Part shown: piece by piece, positions 2,008-23,624 of the stretch
Position numbering within the stretch: the first letter of the stretch is position 1
Layout: each line of letters begins with the position of its first letter
Assembly: GCA_030536755.1 (NCBI GenBank)
Contig: JAUNPJ010000011.1
Span: 1 to 62,886, forward strand
Direction: 5' to 3'
From: Eubacteriales bacterium
GTDB lineage: Bacteria; Bacillota; Clostridia; Lachnospirales; Lachnospiraceae
Length of the DNA: 62,886 nt
Position numbers and translations under genes: made by a program
Notes under the pieces: generated by a model
Told to the model about the DNA's origin: nothing
What the model saw: only the letters and a program-made list of their open reading frames with translations
Databases searched by the model: none

Positions 2008-2913
2008 TTATTCCTCCATAAAGAAATCTGTATCGATTCGTTTGATCTTATAAACCACTTCTGTTGAAACTCCAAGTTCATATTCAATCATAAGTTTTGC
2101 GAGAGTATCCCCATCAACCAGTATAATACTCTGCCCTTTTGCATAATCGATAGCACCTTGCGAAAAGGATGTGGTTGTAATAAATAACCCTTTGGATGCA
2201 TGCTGACCAGCCATTGCCCCAAAGAATTTTTGAATTTCTGGTCGTGATACTGTTGTCTTTGGATTCCACTTTTTAGCTTGAATATAGATTTTGTCAAATC
2301 CAAGTCTGTCCTGGTATATAATTCCGTCGATACCACCGTCGCCAGTAGATTGTGTAGTCATTCCATGACCATTCAGTTCTTTGCAATATCCCATCTTTTC
2401 CAATAGCTTAACTACCATTCGTTCAAAGTATACAGGCGATTGTTTAAGAACCATTTCCAAAACTTCACCGGCTAGCTCATCATTGATCTGATCATATACT
2501 CTCTGGATAGTATCCTGCGGTGTTTCTTCTTCGTCTTTGACAATTTCTACCGGATCCATTTTTTTCTTAGGAGACATTTTCTTAAATTCACAGAATCCCG
2601 GAAACTGGGTAAGTACGTCATCGTTAATAATTTTATACTGCTGATAGATATTTACTCCATCAGCAGTAATTTTAACCTCAAATCTTGATGGCGTCTCAAT
2701 CAAGCCAGCATGCTTCAGATATGTTTTGTTCCAACCAATACGATTGTCTAGAACAGTCTGTGTTCCACTAGCAAGCATTTGAGCCACATCTTCATCCGAG
2801 AGATCAAAAGCTTCAATTATCCTCTGCTTAATTTCTTTTGTTTTATGTACTTTCTCATCCATTAATGCGCCGAGATAAGGTCGATATATCTCATGATATT
2901 TGGGCATTCCCAT
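2008..2913 (-). CDS. Mrr-type restriction endonuclease, last gene of the DISARM-related operon
   Basis: A 301-residue protein, the normal length for Mrr. Residues 1-95 form the Mrr N-terminal winged helix (starting MGMPKYHEIYRPYLGAL, with the GWNKTYLKHAGLI segment). Residues 155-290 form the PD-(D/E)xK catalytic domain: GDGGIDGIIYQD gives the catalytic Asp near 196 and IYIQAKKW gives the QxK motif near 212-214. Mrr enzymes cut modified DNA. It starts 27 bases after the giant GHKL ATPase gene, so it is probably co-transcribed and could be the effector nuclease of the system. That role is inferred. Its coexistence with an adenine methylase in the same operon implies it does not cut self-methylated sites. 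Confidence 0.9.
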   Translation of the reverse strand: MGMPKYHEIYRPYLGALMDEKVHKTKEIKQRIIEAFDLSDEDVAQMLASGTQTVLDNRIGWNKTYLKHAGLIETPSRFEVKITADGVNIYQQYKIINDDVLTQFPGFCEFKKMSPKKKMDPVEIVKDEEETPQDTIQRVYDQINDELAGEVLEMVLKQSPVYFERMVVKLLEKMGYCKELNGHGMTTQSTGDGGIDGIIYQDRLGFDKIYIQAKKWNPKTTVSRPEIQKFFGAMAGQHASKGLFITTTSFSQGAIDYAKGQSIILVDGDTLAKLMIEYELGVSTEVVYKIKRIDTDFFMEE

Positions 2914-2940
2914 TGCTTTTCACCTCTCGTTATTGCCTTC

Positions 2941-5900
2941 TTACCTCTTTTTATTTCTCTTCTGTCCCTTTTTAACTTCTTTCTCTTCCGCACGTTTCTC
3001 AGATTCCGTCTGATCCTCTATGCTCTTTCCAAGTTTAGGAACCCGTTTTGGTGCTTTCTTTCCCCAGCCCTGAACTCTAAAGATTTCCTGAACCTCCGCT
3101 AGATGCGTTGCTGTAAACGTAATTGTTGAATCTCCTATTGGGATTTCGAACTTTCCTGCTCCGGTAGGATTTACCTTCATGATCTCGGTAATGAAATCAT
3201 TCCAAATGATGTCATTGTATCTCATAAAAATATAATCCTTGCTGCAGGTCAGACATAAGTTCAGATACATCTGATTCCATGCATATGCTGGAGTTTTCTC
3301 AATCTCATTACGTTCAATATATTTCTTATATACTTTCTGCCTACACATCTGACAGAAGCAACGATTCTCGCTAAATGCACTTTGATACATACTATAGGCA
3401 TAATTCTTCTTATCCAAAGCTGTTTTTGGTTTCCACTGGATATATTGTTTCTCTACGTATGGATTTCTTGCATTTTTCCAAAGCGTAACAATATAATTTC
3501 TTAACGAAGATACATTCTTCACTTCTTGCTCAGGAAACTCCTCGTAATAATCATCATCGTCATTATCTCCATTTGCACCAAATTCCAGATTGTATCTTTC
3601 TATTTTGTCTTCAGATATAAGCTCTGCTGCAATCAACTTGCTAATAATTTCAAAAAAATTTTCAAAACCACACTGAAGATCCTCGATATCATCATCTTCG
3701 ATCGTTTTAATCTCTAAATCAAACTCATCATAATGGATCTTCAAAATGCCCTGGCAACCAAGAAACTTTGCAAGTTTCTCATACCGTTCTTCAACTACAT
3801 AAGACAGAATAAGCGGACCAGCAAAGAACTGACCAGTTTCATTCAAATATTTGTTTCCCGTCTTATAAGTACCATTCGCCATCTCAAATGGAATTTCTGC
3901 CAGAAGTCCTTTAAGCGTTGCTTCACACTTCTTAAAAGCAATCGTATTTCTTTCAAACTCGTACAAAATATATTTTGCCTTGTCTGCCAGTGATCGTGAA
4001 CTCTTTATATATGCTTCCAATCCATTGCGATATTTCGCATCGAAAACCTCTTGGGTCAACTCATTGATACGGCCTCTTTTTCCAAGAATTTTGTCCGCAG
4101 TGTCAATTGCAAGCACATTCGAATTCAGAATATAGTAATCATCTCTTGAAACTTCCGTTTTATGACTATAGATGTTGTCCTGATATTGAATATATTCGGT
4201 TCCAATCGAAGTCCTTACCGGAATAAACGGAAGGCACTTAACGCCATCTCCAACACCTTCAAATGCAATATTACCTTGATTACCAGACAAATATGCATAC
4301 AGACCATTTCTAAAAATCTCATCGTTAATATACTTTGACGTAATCTTCTGAAGGCACGTCAAGATTTCAGATCCCTTTGCTTTTCTGCAGCCTATTGCTT
4401 CCAATAACGCTACATACTGACTCTTACCAATGGTATCAATTACAACTCCAGGGAACATCAACGAAATATTTTCATACTCCTGCTGCTTTGCTATAAATTC
4501 TGGAATCATCACACAATTGCTTCCCATTGCTGATACAGAATTACCTCCGCCTAAAACTGGAAGAATTTTCTGCTCTCTCAATGCAATTGCCCAGTTATAT
4601 ATATTTAAATAGTCATCATCAAAATTCTGCCATGTAGTTACACCACCTGCAGATCTGAAACCAACATAACGAAATATTTCTAAACCGGTTTCTTTTTTCA
4701 GATCCATAATATTCAGGATTGCTTTATACATATGTCCACGTATAAACTCGTTCCACTTATTATGAAGCAGGTTCTCTCGTGAAGTTGTAAGTTCAAACGG
4801 AGCGTCAATAATCAGCGGAACATTGATCTTGATTGTTGTCGGCAATCCAGAATACAGAAGCATATCTCGATCCTTTACTCGATCTGGGATATAGCAAATA
4901 ATTCTCTGATTTGGATCTACATTTCGACCGTTAATATTTCTTTCATTTAATGCAGTCTGATCAGAAATTGAGAAATCATATTCAATCTTCTCATATCTAT
5001 ATTTCTGTCCGTCTATTTCTACAGTTCTATAAGCACCTCTCTCTGTAATCTTCACAGTATGATTCAGAATAGTAAGCTCTTTTAAGTTTCTAAGGCATAT
5101 ACATAACTGCAGAATTCTATCAACAGAAAAATAGGAAGATATATCTTTCTTCATGCGGAAAACCATAGTGGTTCCCTCTTTCTGTTCAAGAACTTCACAT
5201 TTTTCCGGAACCGTAGGGAGGGTATCTGTTAATCTGAAATGGAATCCGTTACTATGAATTTCAACAGATTGCGCTACTCCAAATACTGATTTAAAACCTA
5301 CGCCTTTTTCACCAATTGACTGAGTTGATCCTGTCAGCAACAATTTTTTTGTTGATTCACCCATAGCGGTTAAAGCACGTACATTGTCTTTGGTAAATCC
5401 GTCCTCATTATAAGATGCCTGGAGAACATCTCCTCTCATAGCAAGAACAAAATGAGGACTCCTACTACTCTGGGTATACTGGCAATCATCTGCATTCTGC
5501 AAAAGCTCATTCAAGAATCTGCTCTTATCAGTACCTGCATCTCGGACAATCTGAATGTAACTGTTGTACATCTTTGGTCCAAAGGCACTCTTTAAGCTAA
5601 TTCGCACACCTCTAAGAAGCTTTAAGTAATCATCATTTTCTATTGTATCATCTACATCATTCAGCTGTTCTGAAGCCTGACGTATCTGCAATGTCGCAGA
5701 AAATGTTTTTCTCGGATCAAACGGCATAGAAAGTTTTGCAAAAGAGCTTAAAGTATTTTTACCAGACAGAACGATTCCTTCTTTGCCCGCTAAAACAAAG
5801 TCAGACTTAGCATCTGGCAAGACAAATAATTTATAACGAATTAACTTTAAGTAAGCTTCAAAAGCTGGATCCAAATCAATGGAATCGACCAATTCCTCAA

Positions 5901-7722
5901 TTGTATCTCGTAACTCTGTCTTATCTTCTTGACACTCTTTGATGAAGACTTGCGGAGATTTCTTATTCTGTATGGACTCACAGGTTCTTTGCATAAACGC
6001 ATTCGATATCTTCTTATGATTTGAAATGACCTCCAGCTGCTTTCTTGACAGATGAACCGGCTCATTATTTGCGATCAGCTTATAGTAGTTTGCATCTGGA
6101 TTATTTTTCTCAAGCCATACCAAAATATCCTCCAAATATTCTTCATTTGCCAATCCTTGACGGAATAACGCAGAGGTAATATTTCCAATCACCTGTACGT
6201 TGTACCATACCATATCTATCGCATATGGCTGAATAAACAGCCTTTTACTTATACCAAGCAGCCGATGAACCAACAGTGCATCCTCTGGAACCTCTTCCTT
6301 AGGGAAAGAAACGATTCGGTCAGCACTCTCATATACTCCGTCTGTTGTCAAGAATACTTTTTCTTTGCAAATAGTATCTCCCTGCAGCGCTGGAATACAC
6401 AAACAGGCTATTTTTTCATTATCACGCTTAAAGAAAAAACTATGTTTGTTTGGGATATATGTAATAATCTGCTCATTCACGATCCTTGAGAAATCAAGGT
6501 ATACGTTCTTTAAAAACTGCGCTAACTGCGTGGATGTATATGTAAACCACTTATTCTTTCCCTGCGGATCCACAAATTCTCTGGATCCATCCAGCTTATA
6601 AGGCACATGCAGGATAATAGGCGCAGTTGTCTTAATCTGCGTTGGAAGGAATGAATACATCACTCCCTTAAACGCCATAAACTCATCCGTTGCCTTAGGG
6701 AATACTGCAATAATATTATGCTTACGTTCAGTAAAAGCTACATCTTCACCATATCGAGATACACATTCCTCCTGTCCATAGATAATAGGCATAGTATACC
6801 TATAACAATCGATATCACTCTTATAAGCTCGATCTACACCGTTGTTATAATCTTTCATATCAATAGAAACCATTACTGAGTCTTCAAAGAAAATGCCATT
6901 CTTCTCTACTGGCTCTTTTCTCTGTACATCGAACTCAATATAACGGAACCCATCAAAATACATTTTTAAATGTGTAAGCTTGTTTAGGAACAGGATTGGA
7001 TTCTTGTTCAATGCCGCATCTTTTTTTAGATACTGCTCTACCAAACCACGATAAATCCCTTTACATGCTATCTGTGGCATCTCTAATGTTAGTCTTGTTC
7101 CTTCTACGGGCTTAAATCCTTCATACTTAGGAACCGGTACAGTGAAATTATTTTTGTACAACTCAAAAGAGAACATGCCACTTTCAATCAGTACTCGGTC
7201 TGCAATACCAAATACGGACTTAAATCCAATACCCTTTTCTCCGATCTCTACCTTATCTGCAGAGATATTTTTAGATGCCTCAGCAATACCGGTAATGGCA
7301 AAAACATTTTCCGGCTTAAATCCCTTTTCATTATATGTAAAGATAATTCTGGCTGGACTCTCGTGATAGCAGAACTGTATTTCCAGATTACAATTGGAAA
7401 TATCATCGTACTCACAATCATCTACATTCTGAATCAATTCGTAAATAAAACGCTGATTATTAGAATAAACACCATCTTCACCAACAGCGAGAAGCGATTC
7501 CAATGTAGCAACAAACTTCTTACCTAGAAGCTGCATCTCGTCCATACTGGATTGACGAAGTTTCTTCAGAATCTGAACATACATCTTATGCTCTTCTACA
7601 GTAGTCAATTCTTCAGGCGACATCGTCTTAAGCAGGCTATACATTTCTTTCTTCTGATTACTACTCAGATCTCCCGCATCCACGTTTCCATATTGTTCAA
7701 ATAGAGAATAAATCTTTTTCAT
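2941..7722 (-). CDS. Giant protein with two GHKL (HSP90/sacsin-like) ATPase domains
   Basis: A 1593-residue protein with two separate ATPase domains of the HSP90/sacsin type. The first has the N-box YELIQNVDD at 94-102 and the EIGEKGIGFKSVF loop at 159-171. The second has NELLQNADD at 738-746 and SIGEKGVGFKSVF at 802-814. Each is followed by a long beta-rich middle region. Near the C-terminus (about 1455-1505) CQMC and CLTC pairs suggest a treble-clef zinc site; the His expected of an active HNH nuclease is not seen. GHKL proteins couple ATP binding to large conformational change, so a sensor or clamp role is possible (inference). It lies between the DrmD-like and Mrr genes. Not a canonical DISARM component. 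Confidence 0.85.
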   Translation of the reverse strand: MKKIYSLFEQYGNVDAGDLSSNQKKEMYSLLKTMSPEELTTVEEHKMYVQILKKLRQSSMDEMQLLGKKFVATLESLLAVGEDGVYSNNQRFIYELIQNVDDCEYDDISNCNLEIQFCYHESPARIIFTYNEKGFKPENVFAITGIAEASKNISADKVEIGEKGIGFKSVFGIADRVLIESGMFSFELYKNNFTVPVPKYEGFKPVEGTRLTLEMPQIACKGIYRGLVEQYLKKDAALNKNPILFLNKLTHLKMYFDGFRYIEFDVQRKEPVEKNGIFFEDSVMVSIDMKDYNNGVDRAYKSDIDCYRYTMPIIYGQEECVSRYGEDVAFTERKHNIIAVFPKATDEFMAFKGVMYSFLPTQIKTTAPIILHVPYKLDGSREFVDPQGKNKWFTYTSTQLAQFLKNVYLDFSRIVNEQIITYIPNKHSFFFKRDNEKIACLCIPALQGDTICKEKVFLTTDGVYESADRIVSFPKEEVPEDALLVHRLLGISKRLFIQPYAIDMVWYNVQVIGNITSALFRQGLANEEYLEDILVWLEKNNPDANYYKLIANNEPVHLSRKQLEVISNHKKISNAFMQRTCESIQNKKSPQVFIKECQEDKTELRDTIEELVDSIDLDPAFEAYLKLIRYKLFVLPDAKSDFVLAGKEGIVLSGKNTLSSFAKLSMPFDPRKTFSATLQIRQASEQLNDVDDTIENDDYLKLLRGVRISLKSAFGPKMYNSYIQIVRDAGTDKSRFLNELLQNADDCQYTQSSRSPHFVLAMRGDVLQASYNEDGFTKDNVRALTAMGESTKKLLLTGSTQSIGEKGVGFKSVFGVAQSVEIHSNGFHFRLTDTLPTVPEKCEVLEQKEGTTMVFRMKKDISSYFSVDRILQLCICLRNLKELTILNHTVKITERGAYRTVEIDGQKYRYEKIEYDFSISDQTALNERNINGRNVDPNQRIICYIPDRVKDRDMLLYSGLPTTIKINVPLIIDAPFELTTSRENLLHNKWNEFIRGHMYKAILNIMDLKKETGLEIFRYVGFRSAGGVTTWQNFDDDYLNIYNWAIALREQKILPVLGGGNSVSAMGSNCVMIPEFIAKQQEYENISLMFPGVVIDTIGKSQYVALLEAIGCRKAKGSEILTCLQKITSKYINDEIFRNGLYAYLSGNQGNIAFEGVGDGVKCLPFIPVRTSIGTEYIQYQDNIYSHKTEVSRDDYYILNSNVLAIDTADKILGKRGRINELTQEVFDAKYRNGLEAYIKSSRSLADKAKYILYEFERNTIAFKKCEATLKGLLAEIPFEMANGTYKTGNKYLNETGQFFAGPLILSYVVEERYEKLAKFLGCQGILKIHYDEFDLEIKTIEDDDIEDLQCGFENFFEIISKLIAAELISEDKIERYNLEFGANGDNDDDDYYEEFPEQEVKNVSSLRNYIVTLWKNARNPYVEKQYIQWKPKTALDKKNYAYSMYQSAFSENRCFCQMCRQKVYKKYIERNEIEKTPAYAWNQMYLNLCLTCSKDYIFMRYNDIIWNDFITEIMKVNPTGAGKFEIPIGDSTITFTATHLAEVQEIFRVQGWGKKAPKRVPKLGKSIEDQTESEKRAEEKEVKKGQKRNKKR

Positions 7723-7742
7723 TTGTATTTCCTACCGCTTAT

Positions 7743-7841: not shown

Positions 7842-7856
7842 AATAAGTCACTTTAC

Positions 7857-10800
7857 TTACTTCACGTGAAGAACACCTCTCACCTGAAGATTTGTATGGA
7901 TATCTACCTGTTTTACCGCAGTATCCAGTTTCTTTTTCTGATCGCTAAAATCAGCAATCAATTTATCCAACTGTGATTGACGCATTCGAATAATTCTTTC
8001 ATCCGATGCTGTCAGAATCTGTTCCTTCAAGATAACCTTACGTTTATTGAAAGAATGACTGAGCTGTTCTAAACGATATTCGCAATCGTTACGAACATCT
8101 GTTGTATAAGCGGCCTTTGATTTTTGCCATTCTTCATAATGGAGTTGATCCATTTCTTCCCACTTATCCTCGTGCTCGTCATCGTCAAATTCATACTCAG
8201 AACTATACTGAAGATAGCCAAGAATATTTTTCTGAACGATTTCGTTTTCAGCAACTGCAACTAATCTAATGTCTGGACGTAGTCCAACAAATTTCCAAAC
8301 ATAAATCAAGAATTCATAATCTCCTGCCGGAAGTTCATCTGTCGAAATAGAGACGCCCACTTCACACGGAAGTTCATTCGACTCAAATGTCGCAGCCTGA
8401 ATTACCAATGGATGCATCTGTGTAAGGAATGTTGCATCTCTATTATCCTTAGCACATACACTATCGAAAGTAATCGCAAGTGTTGGCTTTGCAGATTTTA
8501 AGTATGCTTTCCACAATCTGAATGCAGTATTGTTATTTGTAATCTTAACTTCACCTAAGTTTTCCAGCAGTTTTCTTCTCTTATCTTGGGAAAGTCTGAG
8601 ATTCTTTAAATCGCCTTTGCCACGAATGTATTCTCCATCATCCAGATAGTCTCGAAGGAATGTTTCCACCATTTCTTGTACGCTCTGAGGAGTTATCCAC
8701 ATATTTTCTGCATCCTGCACATCCTTATTCTGAATAAAATTAGAAAGATCAAATCCATATAAGGATTTTTCTTCCTGCTCAAGGCGCTGCATCTCCTGAA
8801 CCTTCATGACCTCGTTATCAGCCATCTTTTCAATCTTCATGTTACGCTCAGCTTCTGTTAAACCAGGCTCAAACATGATTTTCATAATCTGTTCACTAAT
8901 GTCTCCCAGAATTTCAGAGCAATCACCGATACTAGCTTCAAACACACCGATCTTATCTAAACAACGATAATATACGGTTGCATCGATCGTTCCTTCTGTA
9001 ATCATGTTGTAAATCTGAACGGTATCAGACTTCTGACCACGACGGTCAATACGTCCAATTCTCTGTTCAATTCTCATTGGATTCCATGGAAGATCATAGT
9101 TGATCATGGTATCACAGAACTGGTAGTCCAAACCTTCACAACCAACTTCACTGAATAAGAGAACATCAAGTGCCTCATCATTATCACGATCCATCATGAA
9201 TCGCTGACGCAGATTAAATCTCTCTTCATCCGGTACTGAACCATCTACCTGTCCAACTCGAATGCCTCTCTTTTCAAGATTGGTTCGGATGTATTTCAGC
9301 GTATGTCGAAAAGAACTAAAGATAATTACTCTGTTATTCTCTTCATTCTGCTTTCTCTGAATCACCTCAAACATCTTCTCAAATTTAGGATCCGTCTCTG
9401 GAAGTTGAGCAACTAAAGAATCAATCTCATCTGCTAATTCGAACAAAGAATTACCATCGTCATCATTCAAATCAAAATCGAATTCAAACAATTCCCCGTC
9501 TTCCTGAACCTGATCCATTCGCTTATTAATCAGGTCCTGTAAAAATGGCGCAAGTCCATAAATACAGCTTGCAGCCTGTCGCATCAATGTGCACATCATG
9601 AAACGAACACTACGACTGCCATAGATCATTGCTAATGAAGTACTCTCAAAATCAATCACAGCTTCATACAAATCTCTTTGAGCAGAATTCATTGATGCCT
9701 GAACCGTCTGTGTACGACGAACGCAGAAATCCTCAATATCTCTTCGTCTTGTACGATTGATCAGATCATGGAAAGAGTGTAAAGACTCAATCTTATAAAT
9801 CATCTCAATCTTTTCCTCACGTGTTACCTCTTCTTTTTCAAGGAATGCATATATTTTCTCAAAGTCCGGATTATGCTGAATAACACTGCGTCCCCAAGAA
9901 GTATTCAAAATGTTACCGATCTGCTCTTTTCCGGCAGCCTGCCATCCTTTTTCCTGTGTACGAACAATTCTAAGCAATGCATTGATATATCCATTCGGTT
10001 CCGCCATGGTCTGGAAAGTTTCTGGATCCAGCACAATATCCGGACGCAGAAGATTCAATAATGTAAACAGATCTTTATTACTGTTCTGAAGCGGTGTCGC
10101 AGTCAAAAATACAACAGCATCTGCATTTCGGCAGAAGATTTCCACTCCCTTGTATGCCCAGGTATTCTGATTCCGGATATTATGTGCTTCATCTACAATA
10201 ACCAAGTCAAAATGCGGAATTGGGTCTAACTCTGCTAATCCAATATTCTTTCTTCTCTTACCAGAAGTAGATCTTGTACCCTCTAACATATCCTCTCCAA
10301 ACAGAGAATATGGAACAATCATTTTGCTAAAACGCTCCGGCCAAGCCTGATCTCTATGCATCTCAGAGATAGCTTCCGTCAACATCTGTCCATTCATCTG
10401 AACAAAGTTTTCATCAAATCGTTTCATCTCCAATTCCCATTTGCGCTCTGCGACCAATGGTCTTGGGCAAATAATAAGAACAGATTGAATGCTTGATCTT
10501 GCTTCTAATTCTTTCAGAATAAGTCCAGCCTCGATTGTCTTACCAACACCGACATCATCTGCCACTAACAAACGAGGATTGTCTGCTTTAATCATTTTCA
10601 ATGCCGGTCTAAACTGATAAGGAACAAAATCAATACGTGCAGAATTCAATGAATACAGGCTGCTAGACCCTGGATTACTTATCTGATAAGCAGTAAGCGC
10701 GGTTCGAACACGTGATAAAGAAACATGCTGTCTCTCATCATCATCGACAACAAGCTCTAACTGCTCCGCGTAGTAATATTCTTTCTTGCCATTGATAACA

Positions 10801-11420: not shown

Positions 11421-11435
11421 CTTATTCCTCCTTCA

Positions 11436-11456: not shown

Positions 11457-11510
11457 CTATATCATTTGTTCAATATTGCATTTTTAGAGTCTCTCTTTTT
11501 TCTAAATAAC

Positions 11511-13817: not shown

Positions 13818-14659
13818 CAGACTTCCTCCTCCCCGTCGTTATTATTAACTTGCGGTATATTCGTTAAAATATATTCTTGAACCTTGCCTCTCTTAGCAGC
13901 TTTTCCGCCAATATTGCAAGTTCTATCATATTCCAATGTTAAATCACCTTCAAATATTTTTGCAATAGTCTCATGATGAGCATTGGTAAGAATATAATAA
14001 GCACCCTTTTCATTAATAGAATCAATTAAATCTTTTAATCGGCGTTGATCTTCCAATGAGAACAATGTTGCATTATATGCTATAAAATGATCATTCTCCC
14101 CAGTCTTCGAAGAAACAGTATATGGAGGATCAAGAAAAACTAGATCTCCCGTCCCGATATTCAAATCGCTGTCCATAAAATCTTGACACCGAATATCTAC
14201 ACCTTGTAATTTTTCACTTACCGGATCCAGACGATCATAATTGAATTCTCCGGTTCTGCGCCCATACGGGACATTATATTTTCCTCTGCTATTCACACGA
14301 TATATACCGTTAAACGAATAGAAATTCAAATACAAAAATCTTGCCGCAATCTCTATATCCGTTGTTGGTTCTATATCTCTAATTTTATAATAAGAGTCCT
14401 TATCTGTTTTATATCCCTTTAGAGTATTCTTTACTTCTTCCAGGTTATCACGTATCTGAATAAACGTTGTAACTAATTCTTCATTAATATCCGAAAGGAA
14501 TGCCTGATGCGGTATATCTAATGCAAAAAATATTGAAGCCCCACCCATAAATGGCTCTAAATAATTATTAAATTGTATGTCTTTTATAAGATCCTTTACA
14601 CCATCAACAAACCAAGATTTGCCTCCAGCCCATCTTATAAACGAATGATTCTTCGCCAT
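13817..14659 (-). CDS. Dam/D12-class DNA adenine-N6 methyltransferase
   Basis: A 280-residue protein, the usual Dam length. FIRWAGGKSWFV (7-18) is the D12-class SAM-binding motif and FLDPPYTV (near 180) is the catalytic DPPY motif. It should methylate adenine in a short DNA target; the exact site cannot be read from sequence. In class 1 DISARM an adenine methylase (DrmMI) marks self DNA, but DrmMI proteins are usually larger, so this is a functional analogue rather than a clear ortholog. It overlaps its upstream neighbour by one base (TAATG) and its downstream neighbour by one base (TGATG). Confidence 0.9.
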   Translation of the reverse strand: MAKNHSFIRWAGGKSWFVDGVKDLIKDIQFNNYLEPFMGGASIFFALDIPHQAFLSDINEELVTTFIQIRDNLEEVKNTLKGYKTDKDSYYKIRDIEPTTDIEIAARFLYLNFYSFNGIYRVNSRGKYNVPYGRRTGEFNYDRLDPVSEKLQGVDIRCQDFMDSDLNIGTGDLVFLDPPYTVSSKTGENDHFIAYNATLFSLEDQRRLKDLIDSINEKGAYYILTNAHHETIAKIFEGDLTLEYDRTCNIGGKAAKRGKVQEYILTNIPQVNNNDGEEEV

Positions 14660-16269
14660 TATGAGTATCTCCTAACCAGTTCCAATAAATAGTATTTTGC
14701 TCTTGTATAAGCAATATAGTTCATGTTCGAAGTAGAGTTTGGGGAATGGATATAAATCACCATATCCGATTCGAGTCCTTTAAATTCTTCCACCGAACTA
14801 ATCTTTATTTCATTTGCAGCGGAAGGTTCCCCCCTAGTAAATCTCCATTTGGCAATACCAACAGGATATGCTTCCTCAAATCTTTCAACGTCTTCCAACA
14901 AAAAAACTATCTTGTCATTTGCCAGATGCTCTTCATCAATATATTTTTTCAACAGAGATTCCAATCGATGCGTCATCTGTAAATGCTCATGAATATTCTC
15001 TGTTGCAGGTGTTGGTCCTTCAACTGGATTTACGATAACATCTTTTCCCAGATTCGTTTTTTCAGCAGTCCAGGAATAAATATTAGCAGTATTTCTTATA
15101 TTCTCTCTTAGCAGATACGGTTCCCCTGTGATACCAAATCCGTTACCAAAGCTGTTCTCTCTAAAAATCTGCACATCATCATAAAAAATTCCTAACCTTG
15201 ACTTCTCCGGATCTTTCAATAGCCTTCTTGTTATACGAGCCCACTCTTCAGTAAAATCTTGAGCTTCATCCACAAAAATAGCATCATATACTTCATCAGT
15301 ACTTATACTATCTTCGATTCCTTTATAGATTGGACTCTCGTAATTTTCAAAGTTTGTTGATATTTTCTGAAATAGCTGAGACACACAATATGCGTCAATC
15401 TTATCTGCAACAGCAGGATTCATCGCCAAATCTTTCTTAACATTGTCACTTAAAGTCGGTGATGTACATAAGAACAGCACTTTATGATTATTCTGTTCCA
15501 CTTCTTGAATAGCCATCTTTTTGGCAATCCAGGTTTTTCCTGTGCCCGCTCCGCCCTTCATATAGAATTGTGTCACATTACTTAGCAGATAAACATAGTT
15601 GTCTTGTACTCGATTAATAACCTGCAATTGATGTTCTTTGTATTGAACTAATGCACCTGCGGCTGCAGATAACGCTACTTTCTGACGAATCAATTCCAGT
15701 AATGCTTTATGCTGATTTTCTCTGTAAACTCTAAAACCATACGAACGACCAGCCCATAATCTAAACATCTTTTTTATTTTTTCATACAGATGATTCATTT
15801 CTCTGCAATCGATCGTACAATCTCTATGTCTATGGTCTATTGATTTATGTTCAGGCACCGCAAAAAACGGGAAAATAACCCCCGCTGCATAAATTCCGGG
15901 GTACGGTATATGATTTGTATTGGTATACACCTTTTCAAAATAATACATACTTCTTTCTGCCTGATCATATGGGGAACATGATAAATTACGATCTCCATTG
16001 GTATGATCTATTAGTTTCCAATGATTATTTTCATCAATCTCAATACCATTACCGCCCTTTACTTCCAGACAGAGAAATCCGTATTCCGGACTTGCAACAA
16101 TAAAATCAGCTTCTGATTGAATACGTTGGCCTTTTTCATATGTAGTCCACTTAACTGAATAAAAAACATCAAAAGATTTCGGCAACTGACTCTTCAGCGC
16201 ATAGTACACCACCTTCTCAGAATCTTCTGGCAAATATTCAGCTATATTCTTCGGATACATATTAGCCAT
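14659..16269 (-). CDS. NERD nuclease domain fused to SF1 (UvrD-like) helicase
   Basis: A 536-residue protein. The N-terminal NERD domain shows SEADFIVASPEYGFLCLEVKGG (Asp near 55, Glu 69, Lys 71), an apparently complete PD-(D/E)xK core. The helicase part has Walker A GGAGTGKTW near 239-247, VDEAQDF near 335, and the UvrD motif VI-like YIAYTRAKYYLLEL at the C-terminus. The helicase is short and looks like a DUF2075-type minimal SF1 ATPase. It should unwind or translocate on DNA and could cut it. It lies three bases after drmB. No such gene is part of canonical DISARM; NERD helicases do occur in other defence operons. Confidence 0.85.
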   Translation of the reverse strand: MANMYPKNIAEYLPEDSEKVVYYALKSQLPKSFDVFYSVKWTTYEKGQRIQSEADFIVASPEYGFLCLEVKGGNGIEIDENNHWKLIDHTNGDRNLSCSPYDQAERSMYYFEKVYTNTNHIPYPGIYAAGVIFPFFAVPEHKSIDHRHRDCTIDCREMNHLYEKIKKMFRLWAGRSYGFRVYRENQHKALLELIRQKVALSAAAGALVQYKEHQLQVINRVQDNYVYLLSNVTQFYMKGGAGTGKTWIAKKMAIQEVEQNNHKVLFLCTSPTLSDNVKKDLAMNPAVADKIDAYCVSQLFQKISTNFENYESPIYKGIEDSISTDEVYDAIFVDEAQDFTEEWARITRRLLKDPEKSRLGIFYDDVQIFRENSFGNGFGITGEPYLLRENIRNTANIYSWTAEKTNLGKDVIVNPVEGPTPATENIHEHLQMTHRLESLLKKYIDEEHLANDKIVFLLEDVERFEEAYPVGIAKWRFTRGEPSAANEIKISSVEEFKGLESDMVIYIHSPNSTSNMNYIAYTRAKYYLLELVRRYS

Positions 16270-16272
16270 TTT

Positions 16273-18195
16273 TTACATCTCCCAAAAACCAATCTTAGGG
16301 CCTTGAACGCCTTCAATAGAATACATATATTTTCTTCCCAATCCAGCATTAAAATGATTACATGAAATTTCTGGAATGATCAGACATGCATGACATGCCG
16401 TATCATCACGTTCTGTACATACTGGATCAAAAATACAATTTCTTGTATCTTCAAATACACGACGCAAGAAATACTCATATCTCATCTCCGCCATACCAGA
16501 TAAAGCACCAAGCGGTACTCCCTGACTTGTCTGAGAATAGATAAAAATACTTGCAGTCTCAACAAATATAATTTCTGTCAACGAATTGCTACTCAGACCA
16601 CTGATTTCTCCAGCCGCCTGAATGAATGCATGTGACATAGAATGGAGCAAACCGAATACATTCTTTGTAATTGCCTCATCACCTTCAATTTCTCCAAACA
16701 TAGAAATCAAGTCACCATGAACATGCTCGGCAAACCATTTCTTCACAGCCAATTCATCATCTAAGTCAATAACCTGTTCCTGGCGAATAATATTATTATC
16801 TAGAAGCCATTGAATAATCTTTGCCTGGTCAATTTCGAATAAAATACCTTCTGTATCGAGTTTAGCCCCGTATACAAGATTCGCTGTTCCTTCTTTATTC
16901 TTATCGTAGGCATTCAATTTTAACTGCGGCCAATTGGTATTCTTATTATTCTTTGGATCCGCAACAATTCTTGAATATCCATATGTACAATTCACAATTT
17001 GAATATCACAGGAGACCTGCATATTCTTGATGCCCAACTTACTATGCCAGCCTAAAATGTCCTGTGGCGTTTCTATAAATTCCATCTCAATCTGGCGATC
17101 AATGGAGTCCTGAAGGCTGATTACTCTTCTGGCATATTTAACTGTATTGTACTGCATCAGTTTGAAAGAATAGTGGTTCAGCCATTCTTTGTAAGCTACA
17201 GGGTTCTGATTTACGAACTGTCTGCAGATATCATCACATGCAGCTGCGAAACGTTCAATGCTAATATTTCCACTATTACTTTTAGCCATAATGCCAGCAA
17301 CAGCTGTTTCAAAATCAGTTTCATTAATCAATCCTAATGTAATAAGACCTCTAACCTGATTTTCTGCTTCTTGTCTCTTTGCATCGGAACGAAACTGATC
17401 ACTAAAGGCAAGCTCTACATTATCCAATATCTGCTCATATTCATTCTGCGTCATCTTACCAAACCACATGGCAACAATCGCCTTTTGAGCCTCTATACCT
17501 TTTTTGTAAAACTCTCCGCTTCGATGGTCAACCAGGTTAATAATGCATAACGTAAATGCTTTATAGTTTCGCCCTGAATTTGCGTTGTCCGGCAATAATC
17601 TTTTCCCACAGGTTGGACAGATCTGTGCAATATCAATTGCCTTCTCACTATTACCCACTTTATAGAACATTTTGAATCGTTCGTTAAACTGGTTTGGACG
17701 ATAGATAAAATCGTGAACACCTTTCACATATGGTATTTTCACCGGCTGCGCATATCCACATTCACAAGCGTAAATCATCTGAAGCTGTTTCACTGAATGC
17801 TTTTTACAATTCGGATTTGTGCACCACCAGGTTCCTCTATCAACATCACTGGCTTTCTTCTTTTCGATTACTTTGCCACATGAGCTACAATAGAAGACCA
17901 ATGGTGAAATTTTTCCCAGGATATCAGGAACCTCATCAATGCAGTTTGGTTCGACAACTACAAACGAATGCACTCCATCCCGAATATCAAAGGAAGAGAT
18001 ATCACCGCCTCTATCACCGAATAATTTGATCTGTCTTTTAATCTCGTTCTCTATGAAATCTTCATAGATCCCTTTCATTTCTTTATAGCTCCAATGGGTA
18101 ATCTGCGCAGTTACAGCCACACCATTGTCATCCCTCTCCGAAATCCAGGTACGTGGTAAAAATTTATATACTGCTTGACTTTTACTTCGCTTCAT
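16273..18195 (-). CDS. drmB: DrmB, DUF1998-domain protein of DISARM-type systems
   Basis: A 640-residue protein. Zinc-binding pairs occur at YCSSCG (103-106), CTNPNC (125-130) and CECG (144-147), then CPTCGK near 192. The C-terminal DUF1998 region (about 500-640) contains the Cys/His cluster from CTERDDTACHACL to EISCNHFNAGLGR, which is diagnostic of DrmB and its relatives. In DISARM, DrmA and DrmB form the core complex that loads on incoming DNA. The gene is 11 bases downstream of drmA, the conserved DISARM order. Confident as a DrmB-family member; whether it partners the non-canonical proteins here is inferred. Confidence 0.88.
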   Translation of the reverse strand: MKRSKSQAVYKFLPRTWISERDDNGVAVTAQITHWSYKEMKGIYEDFIENEIKRQIKLFGDRGGDISSFDIRDGVHSFVVVEPNCIDEVPDILGKISPLVFYCSSCGKVIEKKKASDVDRGTWWCTNPNCKKHSVKQLQMIYACECGYAQPVKIPYVKGVHDFIYRPNQFNERFKMFYKVGNSEKAIDIAQICPTCGKRLLPDNANSGRNYKAFTLCIINLVDHRSGEFYKKGIEAQKAIVAMWFGKMTQNEYEQILDNVELAFSDQFRSDAKRQEAENQVRGLITLGLINETDFETAVAGIMAKSNSGNISIERFAAACDDICRQFVNQNPVAYKEWLNHYSFKLMQYNTVKYARRVISLQDSIDRQIEMEFIETPQDILGWHSKLGIKNMQVSCDIQIVNCTYGYSRIVADPKNNKNTNWPQLKLNAYDKNKEGTANLVYGAKLDTEGILFEIDQAKIIQWLLDNNIIRQEQVIDLDDELAVKKWFAEHVHGDLISMFGEIEGDEAITKNVFGLLHSMSHAFIQAAGEISGLSSNSLTEIIFVETASIFIYSQTSQGVPLGALSGMAEMRYEYFLRRVFEDTRNCIFDPVCTERDDTACHACLIIPEISCNHFNAGLGRKYMYSIEGVQGPKIGFWEM

Positions 18196-18206
18196 AACTA
18201 CCCACC

Positions 18207-21200
18207 TTAAATCTTAATCTCAATCTGCTCTTCTGTGTCTCTCAGACTTCGCATAGGCTTTAATCGCCCATGGGAGAATTGTCCGATTGCGTCTGATAAG
18301 AACACATCCTTTTCGAATGTTCCGTTCTGAATACCTCCAAGAATCTTTGGCACTTCCTCTCGGATAATTTCTTTATATGCAATGGACATCTTCTCGTTAT
18401 CCCGGCAATCATAAATGGCAATAATCATATTAACCACATAATCAATATCAATGAGCCCGTCCATAAGGAGCTTCTTCACCTTGATTGCCTGATACAAATT
18501 ATCGTTGTTTGTTTCGACAGTATAATACTGCATTAACACACCAGATAAGATACCTGGCAGAGTACTATATATAGCATTCTTGGCCCATCTATTAATCGGT
18601 ACCGATTCGACAAGATCATCCTTGTTCTGATGGAAAGTCACAAAGTTTTTCAGGTATGATCTATCTCTTACTCGCATTAGGCGAATGATATCTACAACAA
18701 TACCGGTATACTTACGACCTGTACGAGAATATGCCTGAATATATTCGGCATTATTATTCGGCATACCGAAGAAATACATAATATTAAAGGAGTCCTCATC
18801 TACACCATGCGAAATTGTACTGGTCGCCAAAATAAGGTTTGTACTATCATATTTCTTACGATTTTCCTGAATATCGAAGAGTGTTTTTCTTACCGTCTGG
18901 AAATCGACATCACTCGTCATCTGCTCTACAACGAACTCAGGAATTCCCTTTGCCTGCAGGAAGTTATTACCCTGGTTCTTAAAGGCATTCTCAAGTTCCA
19001 TTGCATCTTGTTTTCGATTGTTATATACAAGTTCGATCCAGTAATCAAAGAGCATATTCTTGTACTCTTCTTCCGAAGCATCGAATCCTTTTTCACAAAG
19101 AGCCTGATATGATTCTTGCCAGTTTCGGATCATGCGATAAACAACCAGACGCATGATATAAACCGATTCCCACATTCCATCTGTGATGGATCTTCCATAT
19201 GGTGCATAACCGAGAATAATTCGTGTAATATCCTGTTCGTTGGTAAATGAATAGAAGTCTTCTCCATTTTTTACCGAAGGATACTCACAAGGGAATCTTC
19301 TTGCATCCATATGATAAAGATTTTTAATGTGTTCTTCATACATAGAGATAGTAGCTGTTGCACCAATAAAACGAATCTGTTTACGGTGCTCTGGCTTGAC
19401 CATCTTTCTGGCATAGTAATATAAGAAAGACTCGTAATGAGAATCGAATGTTCCAAGGCTCTCCTTGATTAAATGCATCTCATCCTGAATCATCAGTGTA
19501 GGAACAGGGTCCTTTAAGTAATTCACATTCTGAACATGTCCACTACAACCTGCACAAGTACATCTGGATCCAACAGAAAATCCATGTGTCGGACACCACT
19601 TCTTAACCTGTCCAAAAAGCATTTTGAATTCATTCGTTGTTCCAATCATGGACATCTTATCAATAGTACTTACAACTACCGATGGAAGATATCTATAAAT
19701 TTCACTATCGACAATAAAAAGTGGTAATGTTTCCATCTCACACTCTGGATTGTCACAGACGTGTTCAAGGACCCATCTCTCTTTATTAAATCGTACATTG
19801 ATTTGCTTCTTTCCACAGCATGGACAGGTATCAATAAATCTATAGTACTCATTCAAAGTTTCCTGATCACTTTCAAGAATAAGATCCAGATCCTGCTGCT
19901 GACCACCTCGACTACTTAATCGCTCCTTGATATCAATCTTATTCGGGGTGTTATTATTTCCTACATAGAATCCAACTCTAAATTCAGTCATCTCACGAAG
20001 AGCTGCGGATTCCGTACGAACCTTATTGGCCTTCATAATAATTGTAAGCACACGATCTAGCTGCTGCACAGCCAACAATCTAAGTGGATACTTTAAGAAT
20101 GCCGTAATACCCTGATTTTTTCCACGCAAACGATCAAAGAACATTGTAAATACTGTAATACCAAGGAATGCTTCGGTTTTGCCACCGCCGGTTGGAAAGT
20201 ACAGAAGATTTGCTACTTCAAGATCTGCAGCACTTAATGACGCATCCTCTCTATATTCACTACGAACTGCCTCTGCAAGCATAGATACAATAAACACAAT
20301 CTGGAAAAGTCTCCATCCTGTAATATTCTTCCTGCTTGCAGGATTTAGTTTAGTCTGGAAAGTCTTATTCATGTATGTAAATGCAGTCTTCACCGTATCT
20401 TTATACTCAATCAGATGAATTCCTGTTTCAAATCGATCAATTTCTCCTCTATAAGCAATCAATGCTTTCTGATATTTCTCTTTGGCCATAGCTGAAAGAT
20501 CTGGCAGTTGTTCGAATTCAGATTCACATCGTTCGTAATCCTCATTCATTCTGTCCAGGATGAAATTCAAATTCGTAATAGGATCATTAATCAATTTTTC
20601 AAATGTGACATATCCTTTTAAGTCATCCTTAGTTATCAAACGCTTCTGATAATACTTCGGAATATTGTCCGTTTGAATCTCACATACTCTTCCAGCATCA
20701 TCTTTCACATAACGAGCTGACGTATTTTCTGTAACTGCATAAATCGGATCCCTTTCCTTATATCCAGTACTAAAGTAATCCAATTTTATTTCCTGGAATT
20801 CAACATGCTCGTTTCCAGTAACAGTTATTCCTGCATCGAAAATCTTTGGTAAATATCCTACGTTTTTCCCATCATTAACTGGCGTCTTATTTACCATCTG
20901 AAGCAAAAAGCGCAGACTATCCCCTTCCTCAACAATATGGGTGAAAATATCCACTTTCCAGCTTGGATATACTGGCTCATTTTTGATTGTCAGTGCCTGT
21001 TCAAACTTCTCTTCTGAAACCAAATCTAAAAATGGAATTCTAGTCTTATTCACAATACGGATCTCCGGGCTGATCAAACTAGCAATTTCATTTAATTTAT
21101 TTTGAATCTGTGCCTCTAAATGAATATTAGATGTACCAAGCTCCGAAAGCGAAAGTTCAATCCCATCTCCAAATTTTTCTGCGATGTCGATCTTCTTGTA

Positions 21201-21614
21201 GGTAAGTGGCACAGAGATTTTTTTATCTGCATAAGTATCACTTAATTCAACAATATTGGCATAAGGATGCTTGTCCTTCTCCCTATACTTTTGCAGAATA
21301 TAATCAATCGTCATATCATAATCTGGCTGAATCATATAAAAGAATAATCCTCTCGGAATAATCCTTACAATACCCTGATTCTTCTTCACCACAAAAGACA
21401 AACTGATTGACGGAACACTCTCAAACTTAGTGCTACTATTTTCAGCATAACCACCTTGAAATGTTGTATCGATACGATTCTCTGCAAGCATTCCGACCAT
21501 AACTCGTTCAGCTGGATCGTCCTCCACAAAAGTATCAGGCAGATCTTTTCCAGATACTCGTTCTATATACTTTGACACGATATAATCGGCCATAATATTG
21601 TAATTATTTGCCAT
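18207..21614 (-). CDS. drmA: DrmA, SF2-like helicase of DISARM-type systems
   Basis: A 1135-residue protein. After a 450-residue N-terminal region come Walker A LLYFPTGGGKTEAFL (470-484), a cysteine-rich insert (CPCCGKK near 597, CDNPEC near 620, CPTHG and CTCAGC near 674-690), the Walker B variant IQDEMHLI (709-716), motif III IGATATIS, and the C-terminal lobe with STISHGVDED and YIQAYSRTGR (about 925-965). The zinc insert between helicase motifs and the GGGKT loop are typical of DrmA. DrmA-DrmB threads DNA and its entry is gated in characterised DISARM. Ten bases separate it from the upstream SF1 helicase gene, so it is the second gene of the operon. Confidence 0.88.
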   Translation of the reverse strand: MANNYNIMADYIVSKYIERVSGKDLPDTFVEDDPAERVMVGMLAENRIDTTFQGGYAENSSTKFESVPSISLSFVVKKNQGIVRIIPRGLFFYMIQPDYDMTIDYILQKYREKDKHPYANIVELSDTYADKKISVPLTYKKIDIAEKFGDGIELSLSELGTSNIHLEAQIQNKLNEIASLISPEIRIVNKTRIPFLDLVSEEKFEQALTIKNEPVYPSWKVDIFTHIVEEGDSLRFLLQMVNKTPVNDGKNVGYLPKIFDAGITVTGNEHVEFQEIKLDYFSTGYKERDPIYAVTENTSARYVKDDAGRVCEIQTDNIPKYYQKRLITKDDLKGYVTFEKLINDPITNLNFILDRMNEDYERCESEFEQLPDLSAMAKEKYQKALIAYRGEIDRFETGIHLIEYKDTVKTAFTYMNKTFQTKLNPASRKNITGWRLFQIVFIVSMLAEAVRSEYREDASLSAADLEVANLLYFPTGGGKTEAFLGITVFTMFFDRLRGKNQGITAFLKYPLRLLAVQQLDRVLTIIMKANKVRTESAALREMTEFRVGFYVGNNNTPNKIDIKERLSSRGGQQQDLDLILESDQETLNEYYRFIDTCPCCGKKQINVRFNKERWVLEHVCDNPECEMETLPLFIVDSEIYRYLPSVVVSTIDKMSMIGTTNEFKMLFGQVKKWCPTHGFSVGSRCTCAGCSGHVQNVNYLKDPVPTLMIQDEMHLIKESLGTFDSHYESFLYYYARKMVKPEHRKQIRFIGATATISMYEEHIKNLYHMDARRFPCEYPSVKNGEDFYSFTNEQDITRIILGYAPYGRSITDGMWESVYIMRLVVYRMIRNWQESYQALCEKGFDASEEEYKNMLFDYWIELVYNNRKQDAMELENAFKNQGNNFLQAKGIPEFVVEQMTSDVDFQTVRKTLFDIQENRKKYDSTNLILATSTISHGVDEDSFNIMYFFGMPNNNAEYIQAYSRTGRKYTGIVVDIIRLMRVRDRSYLKNFVTFHQNKDDLVESVPINRWAKNAIYSTLPGILSGVLMQYYTVETNNDNLYQAIKVKKLLMDGLIDIDYVVNMIIAIYDCRDNEKMSIAYKEIIREEVPKILGGIQNGTFEKDVFLSDAIGQFSHGRLKPMRSLRDTEEQIEIKI

Positions 21615-21624
21615 TGTTCATCAC

Positions 21625-23580
21625 CTATTTTTTTAATATTTCTTCCATTGGACTGCCCGGCTTTAAATCACTTAACACGTATAAAATGTCTCTTGCTCTT
21701 GAGCATGCTGTATAAATTGCACGCATCTGACTTTGAACCTGTGCCTGATCATCATCATCCATTCCCTTGATGGCATTCCACGAACTAATCTCTTTTTTAT
21801 AATAATTATCACCAAAGATGTAATTGTAAGGATATAAACCAGCAACAATTACCGCTTTAAAATCCAATCCTAACGAAGAGTCTATTGTAGATACTACAAC
21901 ACCATTAGTATCGCTATATCTCTTACGGTCGAAGGCTCCATCTAACGAAGACGTGATTAAGGAATAGGGTATGTCTTCTTCGTTCAATGCCTTCTCAAGC
22001 CAATATAAGAAATAGTACTTGATAAGTTTATGTTGTTTATATGGGAATAAAACTGCAATCTCGGAATAGCTTAGTTTGTATTTCTGCGCAATCTCCTTTA
22101 TTGCATCAACAGTTTTCTGAGTAATGTCTATTCGACTCAAACCGGTTTTAACATTAAGAGCCAATGTCTTATTCTCACCAACTTCAAAAGAATCATATTC
22201 AAATTCTTTGAAGTTTATCAGATCCAACATTTTCATTCGCTCATTCATATGCTGAAGCATATGACATAAGTACAAACCAATCTGCTTACTATTTCTGTAA
22301 TTCTTGCGAATGTATTTAACTCGTCCTGTAAAATCCAAAGTAACGCCAGCAATCTTCTTCCAAGGGACATCTCCCCGTCTACTCTTCTTTCTAACAGTCT
22401 GATTCAGATCACCAGCCATAAGAAATGTATTGTCCTCAGAATCTTCTAAGAGCAAATAGCATAGTTCCAGATACTGTGGATCAAAAATTTGTACCTCATC
22501 AATAAAAATTGCTTTGAATCTCAATTTCAATCTTCCAGTTTTTACGAGATTGATGCAGTTTTGAATCTCCTCTGGAGTAGCAATGTTGTCTGCACATCTT
22601 GCATTTAAGCATTCCTCGTAAATCTTTTTCACCAGTTTATGGAATGTCATGATATGCAAATTGGAATCATCTCCAAAATTGGCACAGCTTCTTTTAAAAC
22701 AATATGCATCTGCAAGATTGCTGTTATAACAGGTAAGCAAGATATTAGACTCTTTATACATGCTGGCATATTTAAATGCTTTAGAAAGAAGAAGAACACT
22801 TTTTCCAGCTCCTGGATTTGCAAGAATTACTCTATGCCCACGTCCCATGTCATTTACTTGACCAACCTGATAGTCATCCAGGAAAAAAGTTTTGTACTCC
22901 AATTCATCTCCAGTAATTCTCAGCTCTTCTTCTGTATGAATTTTGTTAGCTACTGGAACTTTTACATCTTCAATTTCATTCATCACTACAGTATATTCCG
23001 GAGCCAATCGTTCGAAGATTGCTTTCTGTTCAATCTCTGTCATCTGCTTGAAATTTGGATCATATTCTTTTCTAATATTGGAAAATATTTTTAGATCTGT
23101 CACATGCTTCTCTTTTCCTTCTGAATCCATCGGGTGAAAAAATTTGTACGAAGCATATGTAGCTAAACGTTTTCTCTGAGCTTCTGTAATTTCTCTTCCG
23201 TCGGTTGTCTCTTCCGGGAAAAGAATAATATGCTTGTATGGAAACTTAAGGACTTTATAATCACCGGTTCTAACGATAAGCATCTTAGATTCCAAGAGTC
23301 TCTCATAGATTTTATCTTCGATCATATTCACATACATAATATATGTATCAATCATTGATCCATCTACTTTTCCCTGATATGTTGAAAAAGTGATTAGCCC
23401 CTCACTCGGCGAAATGTACAATCCCATTTTAACCTTGTCTGAACTCATTCTTAACGGATCAATATCTACAGCGAAATGGCCATCCTTTAAATTTCTGGAT
23501 GCATTTCGCAGCAATACCTTTTCGCCTTGTGAAATATGCTCTTTTTTTGAATAATCTCTTGGCCATAAACGAATCGGCAT
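21625..23580 (-). CDS. SF1 UvrD/Rep-like helicase, first gene of the defence operon
   Basis: A 651-residue protein. The first 230 residues have no recognised nuclease motif but resemble NERD-like regions in other helicases. Walker A is ANPGAGKSVLLL (254-265), Walker B is IFIDEVQIFD (358-367), and the C-terminal lobe carries STIDSSLGLDFKAVIVAG and YTACSRARDILYVL. It should be a 3'-5' DNA translocase or helicase. It opens the operon, with GGAGGG ribosome site and a recognisable -10 upstream. It is the second SF1 helicase of the operon; such a protein is not part of class 1 or 2 DISARM. Confidence 0.85.
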   Translation of the reverse strand: MPIRLWPRDYSKKEHISQGEKVLLRNASRNLKDGHFAVDIDPLRMSSDKVKMGLYISPSEGLITFSTYQGKVDGSMIDTYIMYVNMIEDKIYERLLESKMLIVRTGDYKVLKFPYKHIILFPEETTDGREITEAQRKRLATYASYKFFHPMDSEGKEKHVTDLKIFSNIRKEYDPNFKQMTEIEQKAIFERLAPEYTVVMNEIEDVKVPVANKIHTEEELRITGDELEYKTFFLDDYQVGQVNDMGRGHRVILANPGAGKSVLLLSKAFKYASMYKESNILLTCYNSNLADAYCFKRSCANFGDDSNLHIMTFHKLVKKIYEECLNARCADNIATPEEIQNCINLVKTGRLKLRFKAIFIDEVQIFDPQYLELCYLLLEDSEDNTFLMAGDLNQTVRKKSRRGDVPWKKIAGVTLDFTGRVKYIRKNYRNSKQIGLYLCHMLQHMNERMKMLDLINFKEFEYDSFEVGENKTLALNVKTGLSRIDITQKTVDAIKEIAQKYKLSYSEIAVLFPYKQHKLIKYYFLYWLEKALNEEDIPYSLITSSLDGAFDRKRYSDTNGVVVSTIDSSLGLDFKAVIVAGLYPYNYIFGDNYYKKEISSWNAIKGMDDDDQAQVQSQMRAIYTACSRARDILYVLSDLKPGSPMEEILKK

Positions 23581-23624
23581 GTCCTATTCCCTCCACATGC
23601 TCAATAAAACTTGCATAATAATTT

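Follow-up and report, generated by a model that had tools for sequence, protein, structure and literature searches.

Gene Content and Layout of the Locus

A contig of 62,886 nucleotides (nt) from a Lachnospiraceae bacterium (JAUNPJ010000011.1), analyzed here as a whole and hereafter called the window, carries on its minus strand a run of nine large open reading frames (ORFs; g1–g9), which extends from position 23580 down to 2008 and includes the DISARM proteins DrmA and DrmB. We describe this run, its relatives in other genomes and the predicted DISARM-related defense system to which its first six genes point. An earlier note on this DNA had listed nine large same-strand genes, which the ORF reading bears out (every start codon is ATG), and profile scores uphold its domain calls (DrmA, DrmB, DrmD-like SNF2, adenine methylase, SF1 helicase, NERD, DGQHR, double GHKL, and Mrr). 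The genes, with lengths in amino acids (aa) and the evidence for each call, are as follows:

21625..23580, minus strand: g1, SF1 UvrD/GajB-like helicase, 651 aa; opens module A (family searches)
18207..21614, minus strand: g2, DrmA, YprA-like SF2 helicase, 1135 aa, class 2-like (PADLOC DrmA, 457 bits; tree)
16273..18195, minus strand: g3, DrmB with MZB/DUF1998 domain, 640 aa (PADLOC DrmB, 148 bits; Pfam MZB; alignment)
14659..16269, minus strand: g4, NERD nuclease fused to SF1 helicase, 536 aa (family searches; conserved D55/E69/K71)
13817..14659, minus strand: g5, D12-class Dam/DpnM-like adenine methyltransferase, 280 aa (family searches, D12/Dam, 244 bits)
11511..13817, minus strand: g6, N-terminal PD-(D/E)xK-like region (K replaced by H), DGQHR (ParB-like) domain and C-terminal region, 768 aa (DGQHR by profile; PD-(D/E)xK by motif only)
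7857..11420, minus strand: g7, HEPN_Swt1-like region and DrmD-like SNF2 helicase, 1187 aa; module B (family searches, DrmD-like, 397 bits)
2941..7722, minus strand: g8, double GHKL (sacsin/TmtA-like) ATPase, 1593 aa; module B (family searches, TmtA profiles, 246 bits)
2008..2913, minus strand: g9, Mrr restriction endonuclease, 301 aa; beside module B (family searches)

Several of these calls can be set against curated references. DrmA (g2) scores 157 bits against the DrmA of PDB entry 7s9v and 362 bits against the NCBIfam DrmA equivalog (cut-off 950), DrmB (g3) reaches 96.5 of 240 bits with the NCBIfam model, the top PDB match of g5 is M.DpnII (2dpm, 153 bits), and the DGQHR domain of g6 scores 156 bits (cut-off 58.85). 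The helicase g1 contains a Walker A and a DEVQ motif; its N-terminal ~220 aa are untyped by family searches, and a motif-based guess that they form a dead NERD domain was dropped (hhalign probability 0.1%).

Intergenic gaps are 10, 11, 3, -1, and -1 nt within g1–g6, then 90, 134, and 27 nt at the g6/g7, g7/g8, and g8/g9 joints. The "several" one-base overlaps of the earlier note thus come down to two (g4/g5 and g5/g6), and the small ORF that it had counted into the operon has two candidates that both fall away: 23459–23719 overlaps g1, 23945–24208 lies 364 nt upstream, and neither matches Pfam. Its claim that DrmC is missing holds. None of the nine proteins matches DrmC in PADLOC or Pfam, and a whole-genome PLDc_2 search lists no match on the window contig; the same library does detect DrmC in L047 (322 bits) and L044 (320 bits), two DISARM loci from the bacterial class to which the window belongs.

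Two Modules Rather than One Nine-Gene Set

We divide the run into module A (g1–g6) and module B (g7–g8, with the Mrr gene g9 beside it), following the conservation of gene order. An alignment of DrmB, searched in a genome collection of 84,980 species, returned 13 loci—a lower bound, as this search rests on two peptide patterns. The six genes g1–g6 stand in conserved order in eight other loci (L051–L055, L058, L061, and L062; 57–73% identity to the window), which with the window makes nine module A loci, seven of them with all six genes whole; in the remaining two, g1 is cut by the contig end (L051) or split into two ORFs (L054). Two of the nine, L055 and L058, are near-identical and were both counted though they are not independent. 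Two others (L052 and L054) offer <1 kb after g6, and in all six other module A loci with >5 kb after g6, no match to g7, g8, or g9 was found. Close relatives of this DrmA are rare: counting the window, identity is 60% or higher in three of the 299 genomes searched from its family and in two of the 391 from its class. At the other end of the module, g1 is longer at its C-terminus by ~200 aa in L053, L055, L058, and L061 and by ~100 aa in L062; the g1 of the window has no such extension.

Within module A, the pairwise identities of g2–g6 correlate across the nine loci (r 0.82–0.97; g6 against DrmA, r 0.97), and for each of the ten gene pairs none of 2000 label permutations matched the observed correlation; g1 was excluded from this comparison because it is incomplete in two loci. 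Such co-variation fits a unit that would have been inherited together after a single joining.

Module B has its own relatives. Besides the window, four of the 299 family genomes hold a g7 relative (43–65% identity), and in all four the gene directly after it is of GHKL type and locally resembles g8. No DrmB match or DrmA gene lies near these relatives in the stretches read (the contig of G448 ends ~0.9 kb upstream), and none of the four genomes is among the 13 that a search with DrmA matched. The GHKL partner matches TmtA models in the three genomes profiled; the partners are 1057–1286 aa long, as against 1593 aa for g8, and resemble it at ~21–36% identity over short stretches, and g8 itself has no match besides the window at E 1e-20 in the 391 class genomes. 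As judged from these alignments, the g7–g8 pairing is one of type, not of close orthology. What follows the GHKL gene varies: among L079, L082, and L084 a PDC-S68 RecD-like gene (two genomes) or a weakly UvrD-like gene (one), in G448 a 121-aa ORF, and in the window Mrr, so that a linkage of g9 to module B is seen in the window only. The pair g7–g8, perhaps with g9, is best read as a neighboring, separate defense-like unit.

The earlier note had proposed that all nine genes might be a new DISARM subtype or a fusion of DISARM with a modification-sensing system. What stands of this is a DISARM-related system that lacks DrmC and is joined to a modification part; the single nine-gene subtype does not, given the six module A loci without g7–g9. 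The survey of genes kept together that it called for likewise supports g1–g6, in the same order in nine loci, and not the full set. An exact match to a named system was looked for, and none was found in the profile libraries and papers searched.

One Core Beside Different DNA-Modification Modules

The first four genes form a wider core. Four further loci have g1–g4 without g6, namely G648, G313 (Pseudobutyrivibrio sp. YE44), L059 (Catonella morbi), and L060 (a metagenome-assembled genome, MAG, of Alphaproteobacteria); these, the window and the eight other module A loci make up 13 core loci with readable flanks. A 3.6-kb locus with unreadable flanks (L063) was excluded from the counts, and L056 and L057 were dropped as the same records as G648 and G313. 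In 13 of 13, the NERD nuclease-helicase directly follows DrmB, and a DNA-modification module adjoins the core: a D12 methylase in 11, from two distant lineages, and DndBCDE–DndA with DpdE/F/H in two.

In G648, the D12 methylase lies directly upstream of the core and nothing related comes after it; in G313, the core is preceded by a D12 methylase, a predicted type II restriction endonuclease and an AIPR protein. The two methylases are 54% identical to each other and each only 32–33% identical to g5, and therefore represent a separate D12 lineage. A 1375-aa protein encoded directly after g4 in Pseudobutyrivibrio (L040:15351–19478) has no match in Pfam, PADLOC, or NCBIfam.

In both Catonella morbi and the Alphaproteobacteria MAG, the genes after the core encode, in order, DpdE, DpdF, an untyped protein of 265–269 aa, DpdH, an untyped protein of 218–219 aa, DndB, DndC, DndD, DndE, and a DndA-like desulfurase. 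DndB–DndE score above their curated cut-offs in both loci, and DndA, DpdE, DpdF, and DpdH (the last scored on cut pieces of ~600 aa) below theirs. DpdA was also sought in these two genomes; each has one TGT match, and so no second candidate. Three kinds of adjoining module imply at least two exchanges. As far as gene neighborhoods can tell, this suggests that one cutting core can be coupled to different self-marks.

Active Sites of the Nuclease-Helicase and the DGQHR Protein

The two nuclease-type regions of module A show opposite states of their predicted active sites. In g4, the NERD residues D55, E69, and K71 are invariant in 12 of 12 aligned sequences. In g6, the N-terminal D...ExK triad is broken in all nine core-linked copies—K is lost in nine, E in eight, and D in seven, the window keeping D and E—and is intact in all four D12-linked copies found outside the core (L014, L016, L086, and L017). 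The DGQHR domain is kept in all 15 g6 rows examined, including the nine core-linked copies. A weak fifth hit (G192/L013), which covers the DGQHR region only, was left out of these counts. In the g6 tree, the core-linked copies form one clade (100/100) with the window, which keeps D and E but not K, as its first branch; the loss of the triad was hence likely one event, to which further decay of the site would have been added.

The copies outside the core indicate in what company g6 otherwise occurs. In Clostridia, D12 and g6-type genes pair without DrmAB at L014:9753–12877 and L016:1494–4616, and a g6-type gene without DrmAB lies at L017:7947–12724, after genes that we take to be a DpnII-like system. 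On a viral contig, a D12 and DGQHR-nuclease pair (L086:9176–12280, plus strand; 49% identity to g5 and g6) stands alone amid phage-like genes and looks, from its gene content, like a portable two-gene restriction-like unit.

Other DGQHR loci were seen in passing. The hit in G192 (L013:937–3532) is a shorter DGQHR protein of 575 aa beside a gene with an SPPY-type methylase motif, perhaps another methylase–DGQHR pairing. Homologues of g6 on Novosphingobium and Agrobacterium plasmids (L087:7977–14475 and L088:7989–14693; 89–91% of the query covered) adjoin a second DGQHR protein, a radical SAM protein and ATPases; these plasmid loci are possibly another DNA-marking system.

Relation to DISARM

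We placed the 13 core DrmAs in a tree of 32 DrmA proteins, which holds no ARMADA sequence. They form a single clade (100/100), with which two haloarchaeal DrmAs of class 2 type group (98/96); three plasmid DrmAs of class 1 and those of nine Clostridia class 1-like loci fall elsewhere. An assignment to class 1 DISARM was rejected on this placement, and with it falls the "class 1 logic" that the earlier note had seen: DrmA groups with class 2, the methylase is Dam-like and not PglX-like, and in other genomes the DrmD-like gene is found with different partners. Of the two class 2 records closest to the core clade, L089 has a confirmed DrmE, DrmB, a phospholipase D (PLD) protein that matches DrmC, and a cytosine methylase ~6 kb on; in L090, DrmA is preceded by a gene without annotation and followed by DrmB and a PLD protein. 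DrmC is present in both of the Clostridia class 1-like loci that were checked, out of nine. Nine Clostridia DISARM loci (L042–L050) place DrmA/DrmB beside a gene that by motif resembles a 5-methylcytosine (5mC) methylase, an SNF2 helicase and Mod- and Res-like genes; in L047, the one profiled, the Mod/Res pair is type III-like.

By PADLOC, the window has the DrmA and DrmB of DISARM. No DrmMI (PglX-like) or DrmMII (5mC) methylase is present among the nine proteins, whose sole DNA methylase is the D12/Dam-family g5, and neither DrmD nor DrmE can be assigned to act with DrmAB, as g1 has no DrmE match, g7 is absent from the six other module A loci with >5 kb downstream, and the relatives of g7 occur apart from DrmAB in four of four genomes. 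That g1 might be a DrmE homologue by its position was considered and rejected (no PADLOC match; hhalign probability 0.2%, against an alignment of four proteins of which only that of L089 is a confirmed DrmE, the other three being chosen by position at 18–23% identity to it).

With DISARM class 2 (DrmE-DrmA-DrmB-DrmC-DrmMII), the nine-gene run shares homologous, adjacent DrmA and DrmB in the same order, a gene before DrmA and a nuclease after DrmB. However, it lacks the DrmC PLD nuclease, DrmE and the 5mC methylase, and instead has a UvrD helicase, a NERD nuclease-helicase, a D12 methylase and a DGQHR protein; g4 holds the place of DrmC in the DISARM order and is a nuclease of another family. 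With class 1 (DrmD, DrmMI, DrmA, DrmB, DrmC), it shares DrmA/DrmB and, downstream, a DrmD-like gene, but its DrmA falls in another clade, its methylase is D12 rather than PglX-like, and it has no DrmC. In the DrmAB structural study, DrmC is called non-essential for DISARM activity, the authors propose the recruitment of another nuclease, and the DrmAB complex loads on 5′ overhangs, its ATPase responding less to 5mC-methylated DNA (PMC9142583).

Comparison with Other Systems

Parts of the window recur in several other systems. The DGQHR domain of g6 is like that of DpdB and DndB, and in Catonella morbi and the Alphaproteobacteria MAG, DpdE/F/H and DndBCDE-A adjoin the g1–g4 core itself; yet none of g1–g9 is a Dnd or Dpd modification enzyme. 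The DGQHR protein g6 stays far below the cut-offs for DpdB (71 of 300 bits) and DndB (39 of 328 bits), Pfam gives no TGT match (as for DpdA) among the nine window proteins, and the profile libraries find no DndC, DndD, or DndE among them, all three being present in L059 and L060. As for a DpnII-like type II restriction-modification system, a Dam/DpnM-like methylase (g5) is present, and g6 holds a candidate endonuclease domain that is without its K. Tiamat (TmtA) is a single-gene system whose profiles g8 matches, but g8 adjoins a HEPN-DrmD-like helicase and has two GHKL domains. With the YprA-family systems ARMADA, BRIGADE, and TALON, as described in PMC12458937, the window shares a YprA-like helicase, a GajB-like helicase (ARMADA II), a NERD nuclease (TALON), and a mixing with Dpd (BRIGADE); it differs in that DrmA and DrmB are separate genes, module A is without a PglX-like methylase, and Pfam gives no Vsr match.

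The individual parts are known. In the literature searched (supplements excluded, subscription papers mostly outside), we found neither their combination nor an apparent exchange of marks around a single core. The main text of a Dnd survey (PMC10853773) contains 0 mentions of DISARM, DUF1998, or Dpd. The supplement of PMC12458937 may list these DrmA proteins, as the legend of its Figure 1 calls many DISARM-like classes uncharacterized.

Proposed Mechanism and Alternative Explanations

Taken together, the observed gene content and order, conservation, co-diversification, active-site motifs and changing neighbors lead us to propose that module A is probably a modification-guided, restriction-modification-like anti-phage system on a class 2-type DrmAB core, in which g1–g4 would be the engine and the marking modules exchangeable. 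Here, g5 would methylate adenine in the host DNA (N6-methyladenine, m6A) and so mark self, probably at GATC, given that M.DpnII and Dam are the solved structures closest to it. Having lost its nuclease motif, g6 would serve as a DGQHR DNA-binding sensor or adaptor at sites without the mark; the DGQHR (ParB-like) superfamily is thought to bind DNA and recognize modification sites (PMC4619093). DrmAB and the g1 helicase would load on unmarked DNA with an exposed single strand (5′), and the NERD nuclease-helicase g4, encoded at the usual place of DrmC, would make the cut, with g1 and g4 adding unwinding. The neighboring module would be swappable (D12 with g6, the other D12 lineage, or Dnd with DpdE/F/H), and in the Dnd-type loci DndB or DpdE–H might stand in for g6. 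A bolder version, which we offer tentatively and regard as possible but doubtful, is that g1–g4 are a modification-agnostic restriction engine served by three marking modules and two chemically distinct self-marks (m6A on the base by two distant D12 lineages, phosphorothioate in the backbone by Dnd), that the module or an adaptor such as the DGQHR protein reads the mark, and that in an acquired two-gene methylase–nuclease unit the nuclease died and was kept as the reader.

Several points weigh against a modification-guided module A. The core loci of G648 and G313 have no g6. The K position of g6 varies elsewhere too, being R or T in two plasmid homologues that lack D12; the triad was probably lost once in one clade, so that nine of nine are not nine independent losses; and a g6 profile search of PDB gave no match, the PD-(D/E)xK fold being read from the motif. 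The DrmA tree contains five long-branch rows (three labelled class 2, two "other"), and its class 2 rows are not one clade. Finally, published DISARM is able to restrict phage without methylation sites and needs no DrmC (PMC9142583), so that guidance by modification may be partial.

Three other explanations were weighed. That all nine genes make up a single new DISARM subtype, with DrmAB working together with the DrmD-like helicase, the GHKL ATPase and Mrr, would suit the single same-strand run with gaps of at most 134 nt, the like GC contents of its two halves (0.37 and 0.38), the presence of DrmD in class 1 DISARM, and a g8 that is unmatched in the class genomes and only weakly similar to the shorter GHKL proteins encoded next to g7 relatives. 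We nevertheless hold it to be very unlikely, as g7–g9 are in none of the six informative module A loci, the close g7 relatives sit beside a GHKL gene without DrmAB in four of four genomes, and genes no more than 11 nt apart within g1–g6 give way to gaps of 90 nt (g6/g7) and 134 nt (g7/g8). A narrower alternative separates D12 and g6 from the core, as an independent restriction-modification-like or selfish pair that merely lies beside DrmAB and whose g6 is decaying, with no cooperation. The broken triad of core-linked g6 agrees with it, as do the D12 + g6 pairs without the core (L014, L016, and L086) and the g6 beside DpnII-like genes in L017. Yet the core-linked g6 is near full length, keeps DGQHR in nine of nine, co-diversifies with DrmA over the nine loci and, in the window, shares one base with g5; a decaying gene is not expected to remain open in all loci. 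We regard independence of the pair as unlikely.

The core might also sense damage or structure, as a helicase-nuclease in the manner of Hachiman or Druantia, independent of modification and with the methylases as extra protection only. DrmAB does discriminate by DNA structure (the 5′ overhang) besides methylation, as PMC9142583 reports, and the core holds two further SF1 helicases. This explanation appears improbable to us, since one of three kinds of modification module adjoins every one of the 13 core loci, with a complete Dnd set in two, a coupling that is hard to explain if marks are irrelevant.

Genomic Surroundings

Upstream of the operon, the window encodes a MobA/VirD2 relaxase and an ArdC/LPD-domain protein (25773–27152 and 32866–36093), and at about 24 kb the GC content rises from 0.37 to 0.44; a mobile element may adjoin or carry the operon. 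That the core itself travels on a phage or plasmid was considered and set aside: the DrmB alignment found none in viral contigs and DrmA none in phage records, and plasmid DrmA/DrmB matches are all <60% identical. The single g6 and g8 proteins have no match in viral contigs, and the g6 alignment has one, the L086 pair without the core. After g9, a small methyltransferase (window 703–1287) shares 59% identity with the C-terminal half of a NUDIX–methyltransferase fusion (L062:20857–21858) that adjoins a DUF3427 PLD helicase; another defense-like module may start there.

Implications for DISARM

The core family described here bears on how DISARM makes its cut and how it reads the self-mark. It offers a NERD nuclease-helicase after DrmB with an invariant active site, and it provides natural versions of one core beside m6A-type and phosphorothioate marking, so that module exchange would put both the effector and the mark-reader question to a direct test.

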